DNA from: a virus
Virus record (IMG/VR): IMGVR_UViG_3300022227_000047
Span: 1 to 20,101 of that record
Strand: one strand, 5' to 3'
Length of the DNA stretch: 20,101 nt
Numbering within the stretch: the stretch's first letter is position 1; every line of letters begins with the position of its first letter. Shown here one piece after another: positions 1 to 19,065 of this stretch. The notes under the pieces were generated by a model. That model had not been told where the DNA came from and did no database searches. It saw only the letters and a list, made by a program, of their open reading frames with translations. Both the position numbers and the translations under genes were made by a program.

Positions 1-1937
1 TTTAGAGCAACCATAGTATTCATATTAATCCAGAGATTACTTTCAGCATCAGTATTATCCCAATTATCATGTAAAGCTGCAAATGTTGTAAATTTAGTAG
101 TATCTGTATGATAAGCTTTTACAATAGGAGCAGTTGTTTCTTTTACTTTGGCAGGAACAGTGACTGGTATTGTTGTAGTATCTGTAACTTTCCTCCATGG
201 AACATACTCTGTATCAAAAACAATAGTGTTCCATAAATTGCCCCCATCTTGACTAAGAGTATATTTATCGCTTGGAGCAATATATGCAAAACCCAGCGGA
301 CGTTCTCCTACTCCATTCCAAAATGGAAAATATCTTTGTGCGTGAGATAAAGTTACATCAGTAGAGGCAGGGTCTCCTACAGCAGAATAAACTGCATTTC
401 TAAGCATTAATTCATGCTGCGATTCTGAATAGGGATTATATTGTATAACTCCTTGTATTCTTTTTGCTGAAGTATCTAAATTAGATAATTTTAATCCAAG
501 GTCTACAGGGGAACTATTGTCTACATCTGTATAATAGTAAAATTCTATTTCGTATGGTTCAACGAGTATATCAAGTGGAAGTGTTTTTGGAGCAAAGGTA
601 TTAACCGTGGATGTTGCCAAAGACGCCGACCATCCTTTTAAAGGAGTTGATAAATCTGAAATCTGTTGACCTATAGAACGATACGTATTTCTAATATCTA
701 AAATTTTGGTGACATCGTCAGTATATAGTGTATCTGTTAGATTTATAGTATCTTGTTCTACTTCTACCCAGTGACCAAGCCCTGTTCCAGGACCACTGTA
801 ATCGCTATGATCTTCTGCACCACCATCACAATACAATAAAGAAGTGTGACCTGCTATATTTTGATTACATCCAGAGCCTATAATTTGTAATTTGTCTACT
901 GAGGGCTGAACAAAAGTAGTTCCGTTAGGAGGAACTGCTCTAGAAATCACTACATCTTTAACATAGTCAAAGGGAAATAATGAAGCAACATTTAATGATA
1001 TAGTCTCAGCAGTTCCATCATGAAGTAAATAGGCAGATTGAGGAGCATCGAATAGTATAACACTTGGTCCAACATCTCCTACAGATAAAGTAATAAAGTT
1101 CTTAAAACTATCTCTAAGAGTTATAGGTTTATTAATGCTTGCTAGCTCCGTTGATTTGTATATATCCATTCCAGTTTCATTTTCTAAATAGAATGCCTTA
1201 TAATAATCTTCACTCTCTCCTAGCTGTTGTGCTTGGGAAGGAGGTAAAAATGGAACTGCTTGTGAATTAGGTATATCTGTTATTTCAGGCGGGGGAAGTG
1301 CTGGTTGTGGAACTTTTATTGGTTTTAAATATTCAATATCTTCAGCAACATATTGAAAGGTAGTTTCCAAATAAGCTTCATCTGTGCCCGTTACCATGCC
1401 CTCATCTACAAGTCTAATATTTTTTAATAGAAGACGAGATCCAGGGGCATCAGCCCAAGCTTCAGTAGATGTTCCTCTATTAGGAAACTTTGCGCCCTTT
1501 ACTTCTTCTGAAAATAATAATAAAATATCGAATGGTGGGATTTGATCAGTAGTTTTATTTTCTTTACTAGAATAGCTCTCAGAACCGAGAGAAAATCCAT
1601 AAAGACTATCAACATCTTCTACTGCTTCTTCACTAAGTAATGAAAAAAATGCAGCTCTATCGAAGTTTATAACTATAATACTTCCAGCTATAGTTCTTGT
1701 GCCTGAAGTATATGAATGAGCTATAGCCGATCCTAATTTACGAACCGGCATTTTATCTCTGTGTATTGAGTAACTTAGTGCGCCAAGATTTTTAAAAGGA
1801 ATAAAAGTCGAACCGTAAGTACTATTTAATGAATTTTTTGGATCTACTAAGTTTATAGACTTAGCTAGAATGAATGCAGCTACATCAGAGCCTGAGAAAA
1901 CTACATCTTTATTATATGTTGCAGTAAGTTCTTTCAT
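1..1937 (-). CDS. Tail tube paralogue with long C-terminal extension (partial, 3' end outside window)
   Basis: The frame is open from ATG at 1937 to the left edge: 645 codons and no stop, so the C-terminus is missing. Residues 1-205 align by eye with the neighbouring tail tube protein: FSGSD (14-18), SYSIHRDKMPVRKLG (55-69; tube has SWSINREVRPVFVMG), RTIAGSIIVINFDRAAFF (81-98; tube RGVAGSIVMTCFDRSALF), a PPF motif near 134, and TTFQYVAEDI near 192 (tube AQFTYVAKNI). A proline-rich linker (about 205-235) leads into at least 410 residues that I do not recognise. A tube-like domain at the start of a longer protein fits a baseplate or tail-tip component that continues the tube, or a decorated minor tube protein; this role is inferred. 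There is no Shine-Dalgarno site before the ATG; the leader is AU-only and follows a hairpin. Confidence is high for the gene and for homology to the tube, low for exact position in the virion. Confidence 0.85.
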   Translation of the reverse strand, partial: MKELTATYNKDVVFSGSDVAAFILAKSINLVDPKNSLNSTYGSTFIPFKNLGALSYSIHRDKMPVRKLGSAIAHSYTSGTRTIAGSIIVINFDRAAFFSLLSEEAVEDVDSLYGFSLGSESYSSKENKTTDQIPPFDILLLFSEEVKGAKFPNRGTSTEAWADAPGSRLLLKNIRLVDEGMVTGTDEAYLETTFQYVAEDIEYLKPIKVPQPALPPPEITDIPNSQAVPFLPPSQAQQLGESEDYYKAFYLENETGMDIYKSTELASINKPITLRDSFKNFITLSVGDVGPSVILFDAPQSAYLLHDGTAETISLNVASLFPFDYVKDVVISRAVPPNGTTFVQPSVDKLQIIGSGCNQNIAGHTSLLYCDGGAEDHSDYSGPGTGLGHWVEVEQDTINLTDTLYTDDVTKILDIRNTYRSIGQQISDLSTPLKGWSASLATSTVNTFAPKTLPLDILVEPYEIEFYYYTDVDNSSPVDLGLKLSNLDTSAKRIQGVIQYNPYSESQHELMLRNAVYSAVGDPASTDVTLSHAQRYFPFWNGVGERPLGFAYIAPSDKYTLSQDGGNLWNTIVFDTEYVPWRKVTDTTTIPVTVPAKVKETTAPIVKAYHTDTTKFTTFAALHDNWDNTDAESNLWINMNTMVAL

Positions 1938-2739: not shown

Positions 2740-4308
2740 CTATGCTAAATCCTCCGCAGAGAGTTCAACATTATAATGAACATCACGTAACTCAAACTGA
2801 GGCTGTAACGTTAGAGGAATTGTAACTCTTCCAACAACGCGTTCACCTGGAGTCATAACGACAGGAGCTAAAAATCCTCTCAAAACTCTAGGAACTAAAG
2901 AAGTACCTAATTGTGAATCTAACGAAGTTTGAAAAGCTTGTAATAATTCAGCACTTGAAACTTTACCGAGAAAGTCTTTAGCGACATTTCTACAAATTTC
3001 TAAAGCTTCCTGAAGAATAAGAACAGTCATTAAGTTCTCATAATCAGATCCAGCTTTTGCTAACGATCGAGATTCAGATAATTTAATTTCTCCATTCTTT
3101 ATTGAGGGCACAGATACCCTTACATCTGATAGTAAATCAACTTGTAATGATCCGCTTGATGCGTCTTTTCCAGCATAAGCCCATACTAAACCAGTTACTC
3201 CTGGGAGTATGTGTCTATATATAGCTTCTTCTGTCGGCATAGCGGCAATAAGTCCAGCTACAGCGCAATTTAGATTACCGGCATATTTACTTGATTGTCC
3301 ATTAAATATACCTTCACCATCTACGCAAAACATAAACGGTTGGTCAAAACCTGCAAGAACTGTATTTGTTACTAACGAGTTTAAACGAGAAACAACATCG
3401 TCTCTAAGGACGCGACCTCCTACTCCTGAACCAACAATTGGTTCAAAACTAGTAACTCCTATCATTTCTCCATTAAAGTCGTCAAGAAAAGTGGACATTT
3501 GTTGTGCAAAACTTGCTACATCGCCTGAACCGTCAGGTTCATCATTGGGCACTGCATCAAGAGTGACATCTACAATAGCCATAATATCAAAAAAGTCTAC
3601 TATAAAGCTATCATAAGCTTTTGCTAAACCAGCATAAAGATGATTGTCAGCGTCAACATCTGTAGACGGGTCCCAATCGGTTCCATTAGCTAAAGATTCT
3701 TTAGTCTCTCCATTGCCAGTAAATATGTCTTGATTAATTAATTGATCACCTACAATAGAAGAAGCAAACATAATTTCATTTAAAGATATATCTGCATTAA
3801 TTAAGGATGCAAGATCTGATATATCTAAACCAGTCCATGTAATCTTTGTATTTAATTTTGTTTTAGGGTTATAGATATAAAGCTCAGTTGCATTGGCCCA
3901 TATCGAAATATCATTGTATAGTGTTCCAGGATGGACTGCTTCTAGCTTAAAAACATCCGAGCCAGTAGAGTCCGAGGCCCATGTTCTATGTGCAGCAAGG
4001 CTCTGGGGAGTTGTCGCATCAGTATATCCAACAACGCGTAGGCCATAAACATCAGGGGCAGCTGTACCAGCAGATTGGCCATCAAAACATTCTTTGAGAC
4101 CTCTGGTTAAATTATATGCTCCAGATCCAAATGGTCCGAATAGTTCGGCCGCGTCTGAGGGAGAAGAAACTTTTACTGGAGCATTTAGCGGACCATCCGT
4201 AGCATTACCTAGGATGACTACACGTCTATTTCTAGGCCCGGAGCCACCAGCAGCTGCTCGTGTTAAATTATTATCAAATAATTGTCTAGATACTTTTGGG
4301 GTTGCCAT
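2740..4308 (-). CDS. Contractile tail sheath protein
   Basis: This 522-aa protein would form the contractile outer sheath around the tail tube. The N-terminus begins ATPKVSRQLFDNN and continues with a strand reading RRVVILGNATDGPLNAP and a segment SDAAELFGPFGSGAYNLTRG, which matches the usual sheath start of a 'slot' motif for a named virion position followed by an aligned subunit domain. The C-terminal third holds LPGVTGLVWAYAG, a helix-rich stretch with ENLMTVLILQEALEICRN, and ends with RVTIPLTLQPQFELRDVHYN, typical of the sheath core domain. Length is normal for sheaths. The start has GGAG at about 9 nt. The 93-base gap upstream (4309-4401) holds only a weak 5-bp hairpin at 4343-4355 and no clear promoter. 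The tube gene follows. Confidence 0.9.
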   Translation of the reverse strand: MATPKVSRQLFDNNLTRAAAGGSGPRNRRVVILGNATDGPLNAPVKVSSPSDAAELFGPFGSGAYNLTRGLKECFDGQSAGTAAPDVYGLRVVGYTDATTPQSLAAHRTWASDSTGSDVFKLEAVHPGTLYNDISIWANATELYIYNPKTKLNTKITWTGLDISDLASLINADISLNEIMFASSIVGDQLINQDIFTGNGETKESLANGTDWDPSTDVDADNHLYAGLAKAYDSFIVDFFDIMAIVDVTLDAVPNDEPDGSGDVASFAQQMSTFLDDFNGEMIGVTSFEPIVGSGVGGRVLRDDVVSRLNSLVTNTVLAGFDQPFMFCVDGEGIFNGQSSKYAGNLNCAVAGLIAAMPTEEAIYRHILPGVTGLVWAYAGKDASSGSLQVDLLSDVRVSVPSIKNGEIKLSESRSLAKAGSDYENLMTVLILQEALEICRNVAKDFLGKVSSAELLQAFQTSLDSQLGTSLVPRVLRGFLAPVVMTPGERVVGRVTIPLTLQPQFELRDVHYNVELSAEDLA

Positions 4309-4401: not shown

Positions 4402-5067
4402 CTATTCAGAGTCTTCTATTGACTCTGAGACTTTCACTCGAATTACGTCGATTAAGTCAGCAGGAATTGCAGTATGTCTTTCTAAGTCTACTGTATATTC
4501 TAAACTTCGTACATTAAAAGTTTGATTTAACTCATCTACTTCTTTATCTTTTAATCTTTGTCTAAAAACTGTATAGTGTGATCCAAATAATCCACCAAAA
4601 TGATCCATAAATGCAAACTGAAACCAATCAGTTAACTCTTCAGCTTCTTGAGGATTCTTTGCAAATATATCAAATCTATAGAAGACAGTAAAACGTTGTC
4701 CATATACACGCAGAGCTTTTCCACTTTCTAAAAATATATCTGTTCTAAGTCTTGGTTTTACTTCTCTAGTACCTGATTCAGGATTCGCTCTAGGCTTTCC
4801 TCCCAAATTTACCGGAAGCATTCTATCAATACTCCAAACTATACCATTTTCTACTTTAAAATCAGGATCTTTACTAATAACCCAAGCAGGATATGCAGCA
4901 TCGAATCTAATATCTGGTTTTAATATATGTAGAACTTGTTCTAATCGTTCTATGTAAACAAGAGGACTAGCATTACCAGTCACATCTTCTTTATTTATAG
5001 TTAAAGGCATGTCTACGCCGTCGACACCGTCATTATATAATGTTATTTTTACAATATCGTCAGCCAT
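4402..5067 (-). CDS. Probable tail completion / tail terminator protein
   Basis: This 221-aa protein lies between a neck candidate and the sheath gene, where contractile-tail phages usually encode the protein that caps the tail and joins it to the head. A central segment reading FTVFYRFDIFAKNPQEAEEL (about 125-145), followed by TDWFQFAFMDHFG, resembles the strand-helix pattern of tail-terminator proteins, in which a strand describing the virion interface is followed by a long helix. No signal peptide or membrane segment is visible. The start overlaps the upstream stop by one base (TAATG) and has GGGAG about 9 nt before it, so translation is probably coupled. Assignment rests mainly on gene order; another neck role is possible. 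Confidence 0.5.
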   Translation of the reverse strand: MADDIVKITLYNDGVDGVDMPLTINKEDVTGNASPLVYIERLEQVLHILKPDIRFDAAYPAWVISKDPDFKVENGIVWSIDRMLPVNLGGKPRANPESGTREVKPRLRTDIFLESGKALRVYGQRFTVFYRFDIFAKNPQEAEELTDWFQFAFMDHFGGLFGSHYTVFRQRLKDKEVDELNQTFNVRSLEYTVDLERHTAIPADLIDVIRVKVSESIEDSE

Positions 5068-11042: not shown

Positions 11043-12455
11043 TGCTTTGTTTCCTGTAAGTAAGGTTATGTCAGTTAAGGATTCAAATATTAAATCTATT
11101 TGAATCTGCTCATCGGCTTTTTCATTATGTTGATGCTGCTTTGAGCTGGCATCATAATAATTCTTTTCTTTATCATTTGACGAATCTTCCATTTTTGAAT
11201 CATCTTTAATTACCAATGGAGTATCCGGCTTCGTATTTTTTAAATTTTGTACATTTTCAGCATCTTTTTTACTAGATTTACAACCTAGTTGATTTGCTTT
11301 TCTAGAAACACATGCAAGTATAGCTGATTTACTTCCATCGCCTTTATAGCGTCCTATCAATCTCCTAGCCGCAGTTACATGTGCACAATCCGGGACAGGA
11401 AAAGAACGGCCAGGTCCACAAAAAGTGGATGACTTAAGTTTCTTTCTTTGTGAACTAGATAATTTTGCATCACCCATTTCTTCATCTAGTAATGCCTCTA
11501 ATTCATCCCAGTCTATATCTGTTAGACTTAGTAATTTCTCACATTCATCTTCATCTTTTATTTTATTTAGTTCATCCTCTTCTAATCTAGATAAAACTAA
11601 ATCTTCATCATATACTAATCCTTTTTTATCAATATAAGCTTGCTTATCATATTTTACACTTTCCCATAATACTCTATTTGCTACTAGTAATTCAGCTAGT
11701 AAATCACATGCAAGTAAAAAAGATTCATCAGCATATCTAACATCAGAGTCCACAAATACTAAACTTGTTTGGACTTTACATTCATCTCCAACACAAGGAT
11801 CCGCAGGTCTTTCCCCATCAACCATAGATATGGAAGTAATCTGAGCTGCAGTTGTACCATCATTATCTGCGGGGGTATTCACAAGAGAAACTTCTTTATA
11901 ATCCAAAGCACCTACTCTCCAATAACATTGTTTTTCAATACCTTCATCATCTTCATAAATACGTCCTCTACTATGTCCACAATATTCTTCTACATTTAAA
12001 TTAATATTACATATAGAACATTGAGTAAAATTAAAATCACTGGCAGCGTCTCTTAAAGGAGCACCATGAGTAGAAACAGTTAAATAACGTCCATCAATAA
12101 TTTTTTCAATAGCATCACTATCTGTAACTAATACATCTAATTGTGTAAACCCAGCACCTTCCGTAGAATCAATAAATCTGGCTGCTTTAACTCTCCCCAG
12201 GGGTTCACTGTCTAAGTCGTGATTCTTTAAAAAGGGTTTACTATACGGGGTTGTCCACACATCTCTAGATACAGCATAACGCATTGCATCGGGATCATAA
12301 TAAAAAAAGTTTTTATTTTTGTATCCCGCATGGGTAGCATCTAACGTAACAAGCAAGGATTTTGGAATATATCTATTTCCATCTTGCTCTATAGCAAAAT
12401 CTGCAGAAATAGTACTTTTGCTTTGATCTTCAAAATTATGTAGTAATTTACTCAT
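10224..12455 (-). CDS. Prohead maturation protease fused to scaffold domain
   Basis: This 743-aa protein would cleave capsid and scaffold during head maturation and supply the internal scaffold. The N-terminal 200 residues carry the herpesvirus-type/S78-like prohead protease pattern: KPFLKNHD with likely catalytic His79, LGRVKAARF (86-94), YLTVSTHG with likely nucleophile Ser128, and YKEVSLVNTPADNDG (186-200). Between Ser128 and the last motif sits a probable zinc site: C146, C149, C159, H161, perhaps C177. Residues 345-392 form a Cys-rich block with GPGRSFPVPDCAHVTAARRL that I know from other phage protease/scaffold proteins. Beyond about residue 395 the chain is Lys/Glu/Asp/Ser-rich and helical, typical of scaffold. 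The start overlaps the zinc-ribbon gene by eight bases and has only a weak ribosome site. Confidence 0.8.
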   Translation of the reverse strand: MSKLLHNFEDQSKSTISADFAIEQDGNRYIPKSLLVTLDATHAGYKNKNFFYYDPDAMRYAVSRDVWTTPYSKPFLKNHDLDSEPLGRVKAARFIDSTEGAGFTQLDVLVTDSDAIEKIIDGRYLTVSTHGAPLRDAASDFNFTQCSICNINLNVEEYCGHSRGRIYEDDEGIEKQCYWRVGALDYKEVSLVNTPADNDGTTAAQITSISMVDGERPADPCVGDECKVQTSLVFVDSDVRYADESFLLACDLLAELLVANRVLWESVKYDKQAYIDKKGLVYDEDLVLSRLEEDELNKIKDEDECEKLLSLTDIDWDELEALLDEEMGDAKLSSSQRKKLKSSTFCGPGRSFPVPDCAHVTAARRLIGRYKGDGSKSAILACVSRKANQLGCKSSKKDAENVQNLKNTKPDTPLVIKDDSKMEDSSNDKEKNYYDASSKQHQHNEKADEQIQIDLIFESLTDITLLTGNKAMKLNDLTLEKLQQSINGASDKKLDRIKLLIENNSKVSDDVKQAFLQAIEAAIQSEIAKEDAADDTESTNKNSPADLVEALKVEGMGAYIASLKDESFKDGYKLGYEEASVAISLETSSEDEAEEKDLEVDNSKEDSKEDSKEEPTQEENTPEGEQNTQDAEADKKEIENSIKKVLIDTIVHSVTALRKSEIDLEDIETSQKSYRATLEDKDLDELRDLYKELEKDMLTAFVNVPTESLEKETLSEDKPQGLDNDEKPMSDTKKIISSYFKSK
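10617..10651 (-). repeat. 12-bp tandem repeat in the scaffold region
   Basis: The plus-strand unit TTCTTTAGAATC occurs about 2.9 times in tandem and keeps the reading frame. It encodes repeated Ser-Lys-Glu-Asp units in the acidic linker of the scaffold part. Such in-frame repeats vary by slippage, so copy number may differ between relatives. Confidence 0.85.
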
Positions 12456-12792
12456 TTGTAGTCTCTGGTAGTAAGGCTGGAAATTGCTCTAAACTTCTTG
12501 TCATATTTTTACACCTAGGGCACTTAATTTCTATATTTGTTCCTGGAACAATCTTAGATAATAGTTTATTACACATAGTTGTTGATCCCCATTTTTCTGA
12601 TTTCTTTTCATCAATGTGCTGACACCTTAATTCTAATAAATTAGTAGGAACACAGTTTGCCCTAATATTAATTGTAGAGCAACCTCTTTTCTGACATTTG
12701 ATTTCAACTGCATATGGTTTTTCTTGATCAACATACTTACATAATAAAGAACCACATTGTGGACATCTAAACTCCAGATAGTTGTGTTCCAT
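12448..12792 (-). CDS. Tandem zinc-ribbon protein of the Mu Com type
   Basis: This 114-aa protein has two Cys-rich modules. The first is C10-x2-C13 with C33-x4-C38; the second uses C57, C74 and C91-x2-C94. CNKLLSK (74-80) followed by NIEIKCPRCKNMT closely resembles phage Mu Com, a small zinc-finger protein that binds mRNA and controls translation of the mom gene. Here the second module has a longer insert between its first two cysteines. The location between portal and protease genes is unrelated to DNA modification, so the target is unknown; RNA-binding control of head genes or a virion role are both possible. The start has AAGGA at 8 nt and shares one base with the portal stop (TAATG). It overlaps the protease start by eight bases. 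Confidence 0.7.
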   Translation of the reverse strand: MEHNYLEFRCPQCGSLLCKYVDQEKPYAVEIKCQKRGCSTINIRANCVPTNLLELRCQHIDEKKSEKWGSTTMCNKLLSKIVPGTNIEIKCPRCKNMTRSLEQFPALLPETTNE

Positions 12793-14555: not shown

Positions 14556-16726
14556 TAGTATTCTAGTCCTACATTAGTTAGAGCATTTTTAAGTTCTTGT
14601 ATCTCATCGGCGCCTAAAGCTTTTACACATTCTCCTTTTTTCGCCTTACTTACAGCTTCATTTGCTTCTTCTTGAGTTAAACCCATATATTGTGCAAAAA
14701 ATTTAGCCACGTCCTCATCTTTTTGCTCAATTAAGAGAGAAACGGGATTGATCTTCTCACCAGTTATGTCAATCTGGCGGCCTAGGCCCCCTGTAGGAGA
14801 GTAAAATGAACCATCTTTAGACCCATCTCCTGTATCAGAAGTTTTTTTAATATCAACAGTACCACGTCCGTCTGTATATTCAAGACCTGTTCCTGTTCGT
14901 CTTCCAATAGTTGATGATGTTGGAAAAGGTTCATATGGTCCTCCAGTCTCTTTATTCTTGGAAGAATCGGAAGCAGACCCAGCTCCGGAATCGGCTTCAT
15001 ACTTATCTGGTCTTTGAGTTGCACAAATCATAAAAGCTTGTGCATTTAAATCTAATAACCATTCTATAACATCTATAGCTGCATTAAGCTTAGGTAACCA
15101 TGGATGATTTTCTCCAGTAACTGATGCATCTTCTCCTTCACCAGCAACTTCTTTTGCTTTTTTCATCATATAGTCTTGCATATTTAGTATCATTTCTCTA
15201 ACATTTTTTGACCAACCATCTGGACCAAATAAAGCAACTATAAGTGACATAAATAATTGTTCCCACGGTAAACATTGGGCGACAACACTTGGATTATCCG
15301 ATGCTTCTATTCTTTCTTTTCCCCATTGTACAGCTTGTTCAAATAGATGCTGTTGAACAACATTTAACATTGTAACCAGCATTATAGTTATTGAAGTATG
15401 CATTATAGCTGCTATGTTAAATTTAAATCCTTCCCAATTGAAATTCATAGAATCTCCAGTTAATAAGGGAATTAAAGCCATTAGCAGAGCATGTAGCTGT
15501 CTAAGCCATATTCTCTGTTCTTCTAAAAACATCTCTATATGCTGTGTAGAGATAGCTGGATTTTCTAAGAGTTCTTCTAAAGTTATTGGATCTCCAGCAG
15601 CAAATGCTGCCTCGTATTCAGATACAGTGTCATATCTGGTCCGTATTATTATATTACCTCCAGAGTCCACTTTATATATTTTAGCATCTGTTACCCCTGC
15701 TATGGTAGAGCTGCGTATTAATTCATAGAAGATACAACAATAAAATTCTTTGGTAGCCATGCTATCGATAGAACCTCCTATTGCCTCGCCAACTCCGTTA
15801 ATCATATCAGAGATTCCATTAGCTCCATAAGTCTTAGCCCCTTCTATTAAATTCTTTTTATATCCATCTAGATCTGCGTCTTCTAAAGATACATATCTTC
15901 CAACAAGTATAAAGTGAGTATCTTTAGAAGAATCATTAAGTGGGACTGATATTAAACTTGCCCATTCTGACTTTATCTCTTGTAAATTTTCTTCTTTAAA
16001 ATAGACTGTTAAAATATTATCTTCCAATGTAATACTACTAGTTTCTATAGAAAACACAGCAGACTTAACGCCACCATTTGGATTATTTGCTAAGTCCTGT
16101 TTATCTTGTATAGTTTTATCAAATGCTAAACCTAGTTTTGGAAAACCTAAATAAAGTTTCTTTCCTCCAGTTAATTCAGCATCTTCTAATCTGAAAGGAT
16201 TAGTATCATCATATGAGAAGAGCATAGTGGCTGGTTCGGGATTAACCCAACTAACTTCGGTTTTATTGCGTGTTTTTAAATCTTTATTAATATTTTCTAG
16301 TTTTTCCTTTTCAAGTTTATCTCCTCCTTCAAGACTAGAATCTCCAGGATCAGTTACTATTACAATATTATTAAAAGCTGAGCCACTTATTAAGTCTCTT
16401 AGCTCTTGAAATTTAATTGGAAGAAATGTTCCTTTATTATGTGAAATTGGATTTAGAGGATATAAAGAATTTGCAGCATTTCTAACATAAGAAGACATTT
16501 TAGAAGTTAAAGCCTTCCATCTTGCAGCCGAACTCACTTTAGAATCACCAGCAACATCTGACTGTATTCTATTTTTTAATGCTGCAATTGGGTCTCTCCA
16601 TTTAGTTTCATTTCTGCCCTGTTGGGTAGTGTGTTGTTCTATTCGATCGAAAAAGCTAGACAATTCTGCAATTGCAGCATCATCAAGCTCTGATCTAAGA
16701 TCTTCTACCCATTGTTCGTCAGGCAT
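14555..16726 (-). CDS. Unrecognised large protein between terminase and portal
   Basis: I do not recognise this 723-aa protein. Residues 1-100 are helical and polar. The middle (100-400) is mixed alpha/beta, with TFLPIKFQELRDLI, NIVIVTDPGDSS and FILVGRYVSLEDADLDGY. Residues 405-505 contain hydrophobic helices, including LHALLMALIPLLTG, AAIMHTSITIMLVTMLNVVQ and WEQLFMSLIVALFG, which might be membrane-active or core helices. Residues 578-650 form a Gly/Ser/Asp-rich linker, and the last 70 are helical (KDEDVAKFFAQYMGL onward). Its place and size suggest a virion component associated with the portal vertex or an injected protein, which is inference. The start overlaps the terminase stop (TAATG) with GGGAGAAG about 10 nt before it. 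Confidence 0.65.
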   Translation of the reverse strand: MPDEQWVEDLRSELDDAAIAELSSFFDRIEQHTTQQGRNETKWRDPIAALKNRIQSDVAGDSKVSSAARWKALTSKMSSYVRNAANSLYPLNPISHNKGTFLPIKFQELRDLISGSAFNNIVIVTDPGDSSLEGGDKLEKEKLENINKDLKTRNKTEVSWVNPEPATMLFSYDDTNPFRLEDAELTGGKKLYLGFPKLGLAFDKTIQDKQDLANNPNGGVKSAVFSIETSSITLEDNILTVYFKEENLQEIKSEWASLISVPLNDSSKDTHFILVGRYVSLEDADLDGYKKNLIEGAKTYGANGISDMINGVGEAIGGSIDSMATKEFYCCIFYELIRSSTIAGVTDAKIYKVDSGGNIIIRTRYDTVSEYEAAFAAGDPITLEELLENPAISTQHIEMFLEEQRIWLRQLHALLMALIPLLTGDSMNFNWEGFKFNIAAIMHTSITIMLVTMLNVVQQHLFEQAVQWGKERIEASDNPSVVAQCLPWEQLFMSLIVALFGPDGWSKNVREMILNMQDYMMKKAKEVAGEGEDASVTGENHPWLPKLNAAIDVIEWLLDLNAQAFMICATQRPDKYEADSGAGSASDSSKNKETGGPYEPFPTSSTIGRRTGTGLEYTDGRGTVDIKKTSDTGDGSKDGSFYSPTGGLGRQIDITGEKINPVSLLIEQKDEDVAKFFAQYMGLTQEEANEAVSKAKKGECVKALGADEIQELKNALTNVGLEY

Positions 16727-19065
16727 TAGAAACTTCTCCCTTTAGTACTTCTAGTTAATGTTCTTGATTTATGGGAAAATCCTCTACTCTTTACTGATCT
16801 ACTTCCTACTTTTTTAGGAGTTCCATTTTTATCTAGTGTATATTCAGGAGGCTCTCCTTCCCCACTCCAAAATCCATGATCATAAAGTAATGCTCCAGAT
16901 AATGAAGAAACTTTAGGTACATCTTTTATTTTTTCTAAATTAGATCTCCAACCTCCTTTAGTAAAAGCTAATTCAAGTCCTGGAACATTATCTATTACTA
17001 CATCCATATCTCTTTTATGAAAAATTGAAGTATCCATCATATAACCATACGCGGCCAACATTGTAGCATCAAGTCTATGGTCTAGACCATCGCGTACAGT
17101 AGATGCATAAACTTCTCCATATCTACCAACTCTATCGATAATATATCCTCTCATTTGGCCAACTAAATTGAATTCTTCATTTTCTACAGTATTTCCTTTT
17201 AGATCAACTGCAGGAATTATAAGCTGTCCACTTTCATTTAATAATTGTAAATTTTTTACCATTGTATTTTTTGTAGGAGTTTTTCTTGCTATCCCTGTGA
17301 TCTTATCTATGATTTCCGTAGATCCTCCCATGTCAACTGATGCCATATTATCTAACATATACTTCATATTTGTACACTTTGTACCCATGGGACCTTCACC
17401 CTTATCTAATGAAAGTCTAAGCATTTCATAATTTGCCTCACCGTGCCCACGATCAAAAACCATTTTATTAAATTTGATTTTTTTCATTAGTTTTAAAATA
17501 AATTCTACTGATCCCATATTAGTAAAGTCTGCAGGATCTATAGCATCGGCATAAAATACTCTAAGAGCATTTGATTTTTCAATCTTATTAATTAATTCTC
17601 CATCTGGTGTTTTCCATTCTCCATCATTATAAGGTATTAATAAATCAGGAATATTCATATACTCTAAAACAACTGCTTGAACTCCAAATCTAGATTCATT
17701 CCAATCTACTCCTAATACATAAATATTTTCTGGATTGTATCTAAGAGAAGAATAAGAATATACATATAAATTTGAGTCAATAAAATTATTTTTAAAAACT
17801 CCTTCAGCAGCTGTACCAAATAGTGCTAAATATTCATGTTCAAACTGTGTAACAGTTGTAACTGCTTTTAATTCTAATTCTCTATCTTTATTCCATTCGG
17901 GGCTAACCATGGATGGAAAAAAATATTCATTGAAGCCAAGATCTTTTTGTTGTTTTACAATGTTATAAAAATATTCTCTTTTACCTGTTGGAGTTCCTGA
18001 TATTGTAAGATTAGTATCTTTATATGTTGTAGAAATAGGTAATACAGCTTCAACAAGTGCCTCATTTGTTAAAGAATCAACCTCATCTATATATAAATCA
18101 TTGGCTGAATTATGAACTAAAAATCCTCCTGGAGCTAATCCTTCTTCTATTTTTTGACCTGAAGTTATAGAAGGTCCGGCAGCTACTGCTCCTTTACTAT
18201 TAGAATTTTTCTTATAGGCAACAAATGTATGAGAGGGAGTTACTGTTAAATCAAATGTTCTTTTTTTCAGAGAAAGCTTTGTTACTCTTTTAACTCTTGA
18301 CCAATATGCTTTTCCATTAGGATGAACAACAGAAACAAAATCAGCCTCTCTATCAACTTTTTCTTGAGTATATAGTTGTTGAATTTCTGCCCATCCCCTG
18401 CCCATTGTCATTACTTTATGATTTGCAGTAGCAACTAGAAATCTTTCAGAAGCTGTTTCAACTTCATATAATTCCTTAATACCATTATCGTGTATTGCTT
18501 CTACTGTTCCAACAATACTTTTTTCTGTTTCTAAATCTATAGATAATACTTCATCTCCAACCTTTAATTTATCAATTGATACAGAGGTTCCATTTTCTTT
18601 TACAACTTGAGTATCTCTAGGAAGACATTTACCACGAACTGAATTATTTCCGACATAGCCCTGTATTACAGAATTATTTTTAAACCAAATTTCATAAGGA
18701 CGCATTCTAGTACGTGCTATAGACGATGAAATTTCAGGAGCATCTTTAGTCATTCTATTAATAAGATTAAATAAAGTTTGAACTTGAGAATCATATCCAG
18801 CCACAATTAAAATTTCTCTATCAGTATAAGTAAAAGCTTTCCATATAGCTTCAATTGCTAATGTAACAGATTTTCCAGTTCTTCTTCCCATTCTAAGAAC
18901 TCTCTTCTGTGCTCTACTACGTAAAATCTTTTTCTGATAAGGACGAAGTTCTAGAGATTTTTTAGGATCAGAAGGCGAACGAAGATAAATTTCCGCGAAG
19001 TAAACTGGATCACTAAGAATTTGTACTTCTAATAAATCGTCTTTAGTTAACTTGGAGTCTGGCAT
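16726..19065 (-). CDS. terL: Large terminase subunit (TerL) interrupted by a mini-intein
   Basis: TerL is the packaging motor: an ATPase that pumps DNA into the prohead and a nuclease that cuts the concatemer. Of 779 residues, 147-319 are an intein, leaving a 606-aa enzyme. The ATPase part has Walker A GRRTGKS (60-66), Walker B LYIDEVD (324-330, right after the intein) and the coupling motif ISGTPTGK (355-362). The RNase H-like nuclease has acidic residues in VLGVDWNE (D454), VFDRGHGE (D538) and GLDHRLDAT (D662, D666). The C-terminus is basic and Ser-rich. It starts within the end of the upstream gene (19-base overlap), with a moderate AGGTAG site about 8 nt away. No small terminase is recognised nearby; it may lie beyond the right edge. 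Confidence 0.93.
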   Translation of the reverse strand: MPDSKLTKDDLLEVQILSDPVYFAEIYLRSPSDPKKSLELRPYQKKILRSRAQKRVLRMGRRTGKSVTLAIEAIWKAFTYTDREILIVAGYDSQVQTLFNLINRMTKDAPEISSSIARTRMRPYEIWFKNNSVIQGYVGNNSVRGKCLPRDTQVVKENGTSVSIDKLKVGDEVLSIDLETEKSIVGTVEAIHDNGIKELYEVETASERFLVATANHKVMTMGRGWAEIQQLYTQEKVDREADFVSVVHPNGKAYWSRVKRVTKLSLKKRTFDLTVTPSHTFVAYKKNSNSKGAVAAGPSITSGQKIEEGLAPGGFLVHNSANDLYIDEVDSLTNEALVEAVLPISTTYKDTNLTISGTPTGKREYFYNIVKQQKDLGFNEYFFPSMVSPEWNKDRELELKAVTTVTQFEHEYLALFGTAAEGVFKNNFIDSNLYVYSYSSLRYNPENIYVLGVDWNESRFGVQAVVLEYMNIPDLLIPYNDGEWKTPDGELINKIEKSNALRVFYADAIDPADFTNMGSVEFILKLMKKIKFNKMVFDRGHGEANYEMLRLSLDKGEGPMGTKCTNMKYMLDNMASVDMGGSTEIIDKITGIARKTPTKNTMVKNLQLLNESGQLIIPAVDLKGNTVENEEFNLVGQMRGYIIDRVGRYGEVYASTVRDGLDHRLDATMLAAYGYMMDTSIFHKRDMDVVIDNVPGLELAFTKGGWRSNLEKIKDVPKVSSLSGALLYDHGFWSGEGEPPEYTLDKNGTPKKVGSRSVKSRGFSHKSRTLTRSTKGRSF
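18109..18627 (-). mobile_element. Mini-intein (Hint domain) inside the large terminase
   Basis: The 173-residue insert begins at Cys147 (CLPRDTQVVKENG) and ends at His318-Asn319, with Ser320 as the +1 residue. Splicing blocks are visible: N-terminal CLPRDTQV, KLKVGDEVLSID, a block B VATANHKVM with Thr213 and His216, block F TFDLTVTPSHTFVA, and a final GGFLVHN/S. Removal would join SVRGK to SANDLYIDEVD, restoring a normal run into Walker B. The region is too short to hold an endonuclease domain, so it is a mini-intein. The residues needed for protein splicing are present, so it is probably active. A roughly 30-residue loop rich in Gly, Ala and Ser separates blocks F and G, which is unusual. 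Inteins in terminases at ATPase motifs are known. Confidence 0.9.

Follow-up and report, generated by a model that had tools for sequence, protein, structure and literature searches.

The tail-gene locus and its tube paralogue

The window analysed here is an entire IMG/VR virus record of 20,101 bases (IMGVR_UViG_3300022227_000047). At its left edge, a long open reading frame (ORF) that begins like the phage's own tail tube gene runs off the contig. The question raised by this locus is why a phage should encode a second tube-like protein with a long additional part, and where in the tail such a protein would sit.

The recognisable packaging, head and tail genes of the window all lie on the minus strand. 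Among them are genes for a terminase with an intein, the portal and capsid proteins, the tail terminator, the sheath and the tube, and the left-edge gene for the tube paralogue (TP). The TP gene (3-1937, minus strand) starts with an ATG at 1937 and comprises 645 codons. The C-terminus of TP is missing, because the ORF has no stop before the contig end and the window is the whole record. Residues 1-207 (1317-1937, minus) constitute the putative tube-fold domain, which was delimited by BLASTP, shuffled alignments, hhalign, a structural model and PDB fold matches. Residues 208-645 (3-1316, minus) constitute the extension, which was mostly modelled with a pLDDT under 50 and for which significant relatives were found only in the window's own population. 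The adjacent genes at 2018-2632, 2740-4308 and 4402-5067 (all minus) encode the main tail tube protein (T1, 204 aa), the tail sheath protein (522 aa; PHROG tail sheath, E = 1.1e-23) and a tail terminator of predicted gpU/gp15 fold (221 aa; model and fold matches), respectively. T1 was assigned by BLASTP, a tree, profile-profile comparison and an annotated homologue; its homologue in phage KLEB27-3 is annotated as a tail tube protein, and that in MTATph1 as a major head protein.

The terminase ORF (16726-19065, minus) contains an intein at residues 156-283 (Pfam Intein_splicing, E = 2e-11). The gene at 12448-12792 (minus), which adjoins the portal gene, encodes a small zinc-ribbon protein that is a relative of Mu Com (24.3 bits; cut-off 22.9). 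The family PHROG 9206, called "major head protein", is matched by tail tube proteins and by their paralogues, and the same label is found on the tube genes of MTATph1 and of Acinetobacter phage vB_AbaM_ME3. The name of PHROG 9206 is a misleading label.

Homology between TP and the tube protein

In a two-sequence BLASTP comparison, TP and the 204-residue tube protein were identical in 47 of 167 columns (28%; E = 4e-15), the alignment joining TP residues 46-201 with tube residues 29-176. The same pair gave E = 2.8e-13 in a set of 30 proteins. The Smith-Waterman score of TP residues 1-215 against the tube was 146, far above the scores of 1,000 shuffles (mean 31, s.d. 5.2, maximum 62). Profile-profile alignment (hhalign) of 10 TPs with 10 tubes gave a probability of 100% (E = 7.9e-42, 158 columns), and this alignment extends to a common N-terminal FSG.D motif. 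On these sequence comparisons, the N-terminal domain of TP, about the first 207 residues, is homologous to the phage's own tube protein. A reading made from the sequence alone had proposed that the two genes arose by duplication and had called for a pairwise alignment of the two domains; the alignment is significant, and the proposal is borne out by it, by the profile comparison and by the trees described below. The same reading had the paralogue continuing for more than 400 residues, which agrees with the 440 residues that follow residue 205, a lower bound.

Predicted fold of TP

A monomer model of all 645 residues of TP was predicted with AlphaFold2 from 57 aligned rows. The mean pLDDT was 50.3 across the protein; it was 70 or more in 14 of the 21 ten-residue blocks of residues 1-210, and nearly all of residues 235-645 fell below 50. 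A Foldseek search with this model returned 36 PDB chains at E <= 1e-3, all of which belong by title to phage tails or necks, contractile injection systems or Hcp. The entry at rank 50 is an unrelated ATPase (E = 2.1e-3), which counts against the reading preferred below. With a second structure aligner, 49 of the 50 listed entries were of these same kinds by title, and the remaining one (8ygm) is titled only "SPR". The best fold match was a tail chain of phiCD508 (Z = 11.6, rmsd 4.8 over 129 residues, model residues 8-206); the T4 baseplate-tube entry scored Z = 8.0. The best matches comprise both tail and baseplate chains of phiCD508, and neck and cap entries are also listed.

According to the model, the N-terminal domain of TP belongs to the tail tube/Hcp fold superfamily. 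The sequence-only reading would have fallen had residues 1-205 shown no tube fold; the predicted structure matches PDB tail tubes, injection systems and Hcp, so it passes this test. TP matches tubes best; the gpU fold was seen in the protein of 4402-5067 instead, though absence from the list of TP matches does not exclude that fold. The modelled fold cannot tell a tube protein from a tube initiator, and this weighs against placing TP in a baseplate ring. Profile searches of PDB sequences with the tube, TP, T3 (the tube-related gene described below) and terminator alignments returned nothing credible.

Gene order in related phages

Two named phages, KLEB27-3 and MTATph1, together with IMG/VR and GTDB contigs, supplied the relatives. 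A profile scan of IMG/VR yielded 310 related stretches, not all of them necessarily TP, and the best 80 of the 310 were kept. The 96 loci examined (98 minus two pieces of the window itself; numbered here with the prefix L) represent 86 records by contig name, since 10 loci repeat a record, and 52 clusters at 80% TP identity. Because most loci were found through their TP, its presence is given by construction; the gene order is independent of that. No paper that names KLEB27-3 or MTATph1 was found.

The order in related viral contigs is sheath, tube, TP and a third tube-related gene, T3, sometimes followed by a fourth, T4. The tube gene precedes TP in 95 of the 96 loci; in the exception (L051), the sequence examined begins just 96 bases before its match. 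T3 follows TP in 86 of the 96, and in the remaining 10 the contig ends within TP or at most 141 bases after it. By profile, T3 is related to both the tube and TP (E = 2e-13 and 1.1e-8). The T4 gene follows in six near relatives (L009, L010, L013, L016, L018 and L025). After T3 there are usually two short genes and then a very long presumed tape-measure gene (18 maps, where the locus extends far enough).

Several tube genes are interrupted. A group I intron (Rfam RF00028) separates two pieces of the tube gene at L037:9006-9186 and another does so at L030:7821-8011, and the tube genes of L038 and L040 are similarly split without an Rfam match. Between tube and TP, a gene for a papain-family (C1) protease is present at L014:10810-11616 (E = 2.6e-13), and a gene annotated as S-adenosylmethionine decarboxylase is present at L002:19612-19968 in Moorella phage MTATph1.

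Age of the duplication and variation in length

In a tree of nine tubes and 10 TPs (19 rows), the two groups lie on opposite sides of a branch with 100/99 support that was recovered in 100% of 200 bootstrap trees; this tree excludes the near-identical rows of L011, and its MTATph1 tube row is N-terminally shortened by the chosen start. When T3 and T4 were added (28 rows), support was weaker: TP (89/82) formed a single group in 94% of bootstrap trees and the tube (70/90) in 70%. Since a branch with strong support divides the tubes from the TPs, the duplication that gave rise to the window's tube and TP is judged to be old. It most likely predates the split of the Bacillus, Moorella and environmental lineages and was no recent event. 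As far as sequence comparison can tell, TP is the product of an old tail-tube gene duplication in a group of large contractile-tailed phages.

Lengths were compared in 43 of the 52 clusters, a hand-picked set from which two open TPs, four split tubes and three missing or fragmentary tubes were dropped. Tube proteins are 179-264 aa long, near 220 residues (CV 0.07), whereas TPs range from 165 to 2,259 aa (median 261, CV 0.99), with 20 of 43 at 300 aa or more and three at 600 or more. T3 proteins, available for 39 of the 43 clusters, are 121-1,691 aa long (CV 0.83); the shortest comes from L065, where the gene is in two pieces. In the uncut set, which includes split and fragmentary genes, the ranges were 62-264 aa for the tube (55 ORFs, CV 0.23), 165-2,259 aa for TP (50 ORFs, CV 0.96) and 121-1,691 aa for T3/T4 (51 ORFs, CV 0.80). 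Among the near relatives of the window, where the tube ORF has 200-208 aa, complete TPs of 1,556, 1,679, 1,683 and 2,259 aa are found in L009, L010, L016 and L018, and TPs of 408 and 459 aa in L013 and L025. The TPs of L053, L052, KLEB27-3 and MTATph1 (165-181 aa) are almost without extension. A giant TP together with a giant T3 occurs in none of the listed clusters, numbers that are too small to interpret.

The extension of the window's TP (residues 206-645) has no significant match outside the window's own population; the weakest listed E value is 0.019. The extensions of L009, L016 and L018 are mutually homologous, and alignments of the window's extension with those of L009, L016, L018, L025 and L013 stay at the shuffled level. 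Pfam searches of the window's tail genes and of TP extensions gave no usable domain for TP. No credible enzyme or effector domain was detected in 29 scanned TPs (best E = 0.004), and LysM is absent from the seven families that these matched at E <= 0.05; in the parts of the literature drawn on, a LysM module is described for the Mu and Milano initiators and other initiators are without it. A 30-base probe from the left end of the window found no matching viral contig. The idea that the short TP of L013 keeps the C-terminal segment of the long TPs and lacks the middle was rejected by alignment tests: its scores against L009, L010 and L018 were at shuffle level, that against L016 (58) just matched the top score among 500 shuffles, and L013 is missed by a profile built from the other four TPs.

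Position of TP in the tail

The protein encoded at 4402-5067 models well (pLDDT 79.9). Its model matches lambda gpU (Z = 12.8 over 126 residues; Foldseek agrees), the pyocin R2 collar (Z = 12.3), the Mu terminator (Z = 11.7) and T4 gp15 (Z = 8.2). On this predicted structure, it is a gpU/gp15-type tail terminator encoded directly upstream of the sheath gene. Apart from the window's own locus, 89 of 93 loci have a homologue, each adjoining a sheath ORF at a position that ranges from a 33-base overlap to 120 bases upstream. The exceptions, in which it was missed, are L091 and three loci with little upstream sequence (L051, L097 and L098). Because the window encodes this separate terminator, the head end of the tail looks occupied.

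Enzyme domains are found in some T3 proteins. The T3 gene of L033 (L033:10838-15913) encodes 1,691 aa with an NlpC/P60 domain (33.2 bits; Pfam cut-off 23) near the C-terminus at residues 1552-1638. The T3 gene of L051 (L051:1532-2713) encodes a staphylococcal nuclease domain (SNase, 46.5 bits; cut-off 21) that is N-terminal to the tube-related domain. Lysozyme-like and SLT matches in the T3 of L036 and L034 lie below the Pfam cut-off. These domains are of the same kinds as the decorations that have been described, in the sections drawn on, for the hub proteins of 0305phi8-36 and BtI1, of which one carries transglycosylase, NLP and M23 domains and the other a nuclease domain. The enzymes on T3 speak for a position of TP at the tail tip. 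A domain above the cut-off is present in only two of the 18 T3 proteins scanned, which were picked mostly for length, and only one is of a cell-wall type, the other being the nuclease; this counts against the tip position, as does the lack of a credible enzyme domain in the 29 TPs scanned.

The reading preferred here, to which a probability of about 60% is given, is that TP would be a ring at the junction of tube and baseplate that anchors appendages. This placement at the tip is reached by elimination, from the position of the gene between tube and T3, and by analogy with Mu gp43, XM1 gp11 and T4 gp48/gp54. TP would assemble as a hexameric ring that continues the tube at the baseplate end and, with the third (and fourth) tube-related protein encoded next, would help to start tube assembly. 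Its extension would leave the ring at the junction, where there may be no tight packing of sheath, and would contact the wedges and/or make an appendage. Lineages could alter the extension freely, as only the ring domain would be constrained by assembly. The sequence-only reading had suggested that TP caps or initiates the tube at the baseplate; the duplication and the tube fold have held up, and the baseplate placement, though the best-supported reading, is an inferred one.

A head-proximal position, in which TP would be a second terminator or a collar ring and its extension would form a collar or whiskers, is unlikely. Several chains matched by TP come from neck, collar or cap entries, which were taken to be the last tube rings. 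According to a table in the source used for T4, that phage has two terminator proteins, so a single terminator gene leaves some room for a second ring at the head end. Against this stand the terminator gene upstream of the sheath, conserved as described above, and the location of the TP gene, which lies from the tube gene towards the tape measure and next to T3 genes, one of which has a cell-wall-type enzyme above the cut-off. It is still less probable that TP is a minor subunit mixed along the tube with its extension outside, like an extended siphophage tube protein. The tube proteins of siphophages T5 and lambda have C-terminal Ig-like domains according to the part of a review drawn on, and the TPs of 165-181 aa could sit in a tube. 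However, a sheath gene is present. In XM1, the outer diameter of the tube and the inner diameter of the sheath are both given as about 80 A, so long extensions would hardly fit in mid-tail, with little room for 440 to about 2,000 residues per subunit.

About equally doubtful is a role as an assembly factor or precursor, with an extension that is cleaved or used during assembly only. The extension is poorly conserved and was not found outside the window's population, and one of the two short genes that follow T3 in relatives is annotated as a tail chaperonin in ME3. However, the TP homologue of ME3 (gp031) is described in its annotation as homologous to a "0305phi8-36 virion structural protein", so that kin of TP are probably present in virions, as far as an annotation line can be trusted. 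That the long ORF is an artefact, a frameshift or chimeric assembly having fused unrelated sequence to a short tube paralogue, is hardly credible. The contig does end inside TP, as does the identical-sequence contig L005, which may not be an independent assembly; related contigs nevertheless contain the four closed TP ORFs of 1,556-2,259 aa, followed by T3 directly in two of the four and after three other ORFs in the other two.

A further, rather speculative proposal goes beyond the junction ring. TP and T3 could be interchangeable carrier rings on the tip of the tube, and lineages would swap both the ring and its cargo. The tube, and not the baseplate wedges, would then be the attachment site of as many as six appendages or enzymes, with lengths of up to about 2,000 residues. 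On sheath contraction these would be taken towards or into the cell envelope, like the cargo of evolved Hcp in type VI secretion.

Comparison with known systems

Tube-fold initiators are already well known. The comparisons made here draw on portions of PMC11915804, PMC11329794, PMC8718954, PMC3004832, PMC10457771, PMC8570332, PMC4870245 and PMC2147016, and on PMC5000817. In the portions concerned, Mu gp43 has a tube-like domain and a helix-rich domain that reaches the wedges, and XM1 gp11 lies immediately under the tube, with a tube-like inner part and loops to its neighbours. Like TP, both combine a tube-like domain with parts outside the ring, and both were proposed as the start point of the tube. 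TP likewise has a tube-like domain and a further part, the latter being absent in some relatives (the proteins of 165-181 aa). TP differs in that a far longer extension is possible, in the lack of a Pfam match and in that one or two further tube-related partners are present in relatives. The gene number of the initiator follows that of the tape measure in Mu (gp42/gp43) and XM1 (gp10/gp11), whereas TP precedes the tape measure, which counts against the analogy. In T4, gp48 and gp54 are described, in the text drawn on, as more than one ring protein between tube and hub, the tube platform. TP differs from them as a sequence-detectable paralogue of the phage's own tube. The giant extension of TP is not known to have a counterpart in T4.

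The one direct statement on tandem tube paralogues found among open-licence papers concerns Bacillus phage G, in which two tube-like genes (gp179 and gp180) lie between sheath and chaperones. In the portion of the 2021 phage G paper drawn on, the authors do not decide whether the tube is made of both proteins or whether one of them attaches it to the neck or baseplate. The two proteins (242 and 188 aa) are 38% identical (E = 5e-41) and have no giant extension. Neither matched the tube, TP or T3 profiles significantly, but they are among the fold matches of TP; since the profiles do not match, their duplication is perhaps independent. Among open-licence papers, no printed account was found of a conserved cassette of three or four tube-related genes in which the second or third carries a giant, variable extension. 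The phage contig family described here combines one near-constant tube with one or more highly variable tube-fold partners. With so large a comparable family, the phage G question becomes testable: is the second tube protein the baseplate ring, and does the tube bear its own appendages?

The same trio of tube, TP and T3 is encoded by gp030, gp031 and gp032 of Acinetobacter phage vB_AbaM_ME3, among the relatives of 0305phi8-36. The profile scores were 4.6e-39 for gp030 with the tube, 2.9e-23 for gp031 with TP (against 2.2e-14 with the tube) and 3e-20 for gp032 with T3. These proteins are annotated as major head, major structural and hypothetical protein, respectively. The TP of ME3 has 244 aa and is without the giant extension.

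Evolved Hcp proteins of type VI secretion systems have a tube-fold domain with a C-terminal extension. Hcp is among the fold matches of TP; in contrast to evolved Hcp, no effector domain was detected in the TP extensions scanned, and TP belongs to a phage tail. Two sheath-related ORFs per locus were found in 29 of the 95 loci with a sheath match. Multiple sheath genes are a feature of extracellular contractile injection systems, which these two-sheath loci recall.
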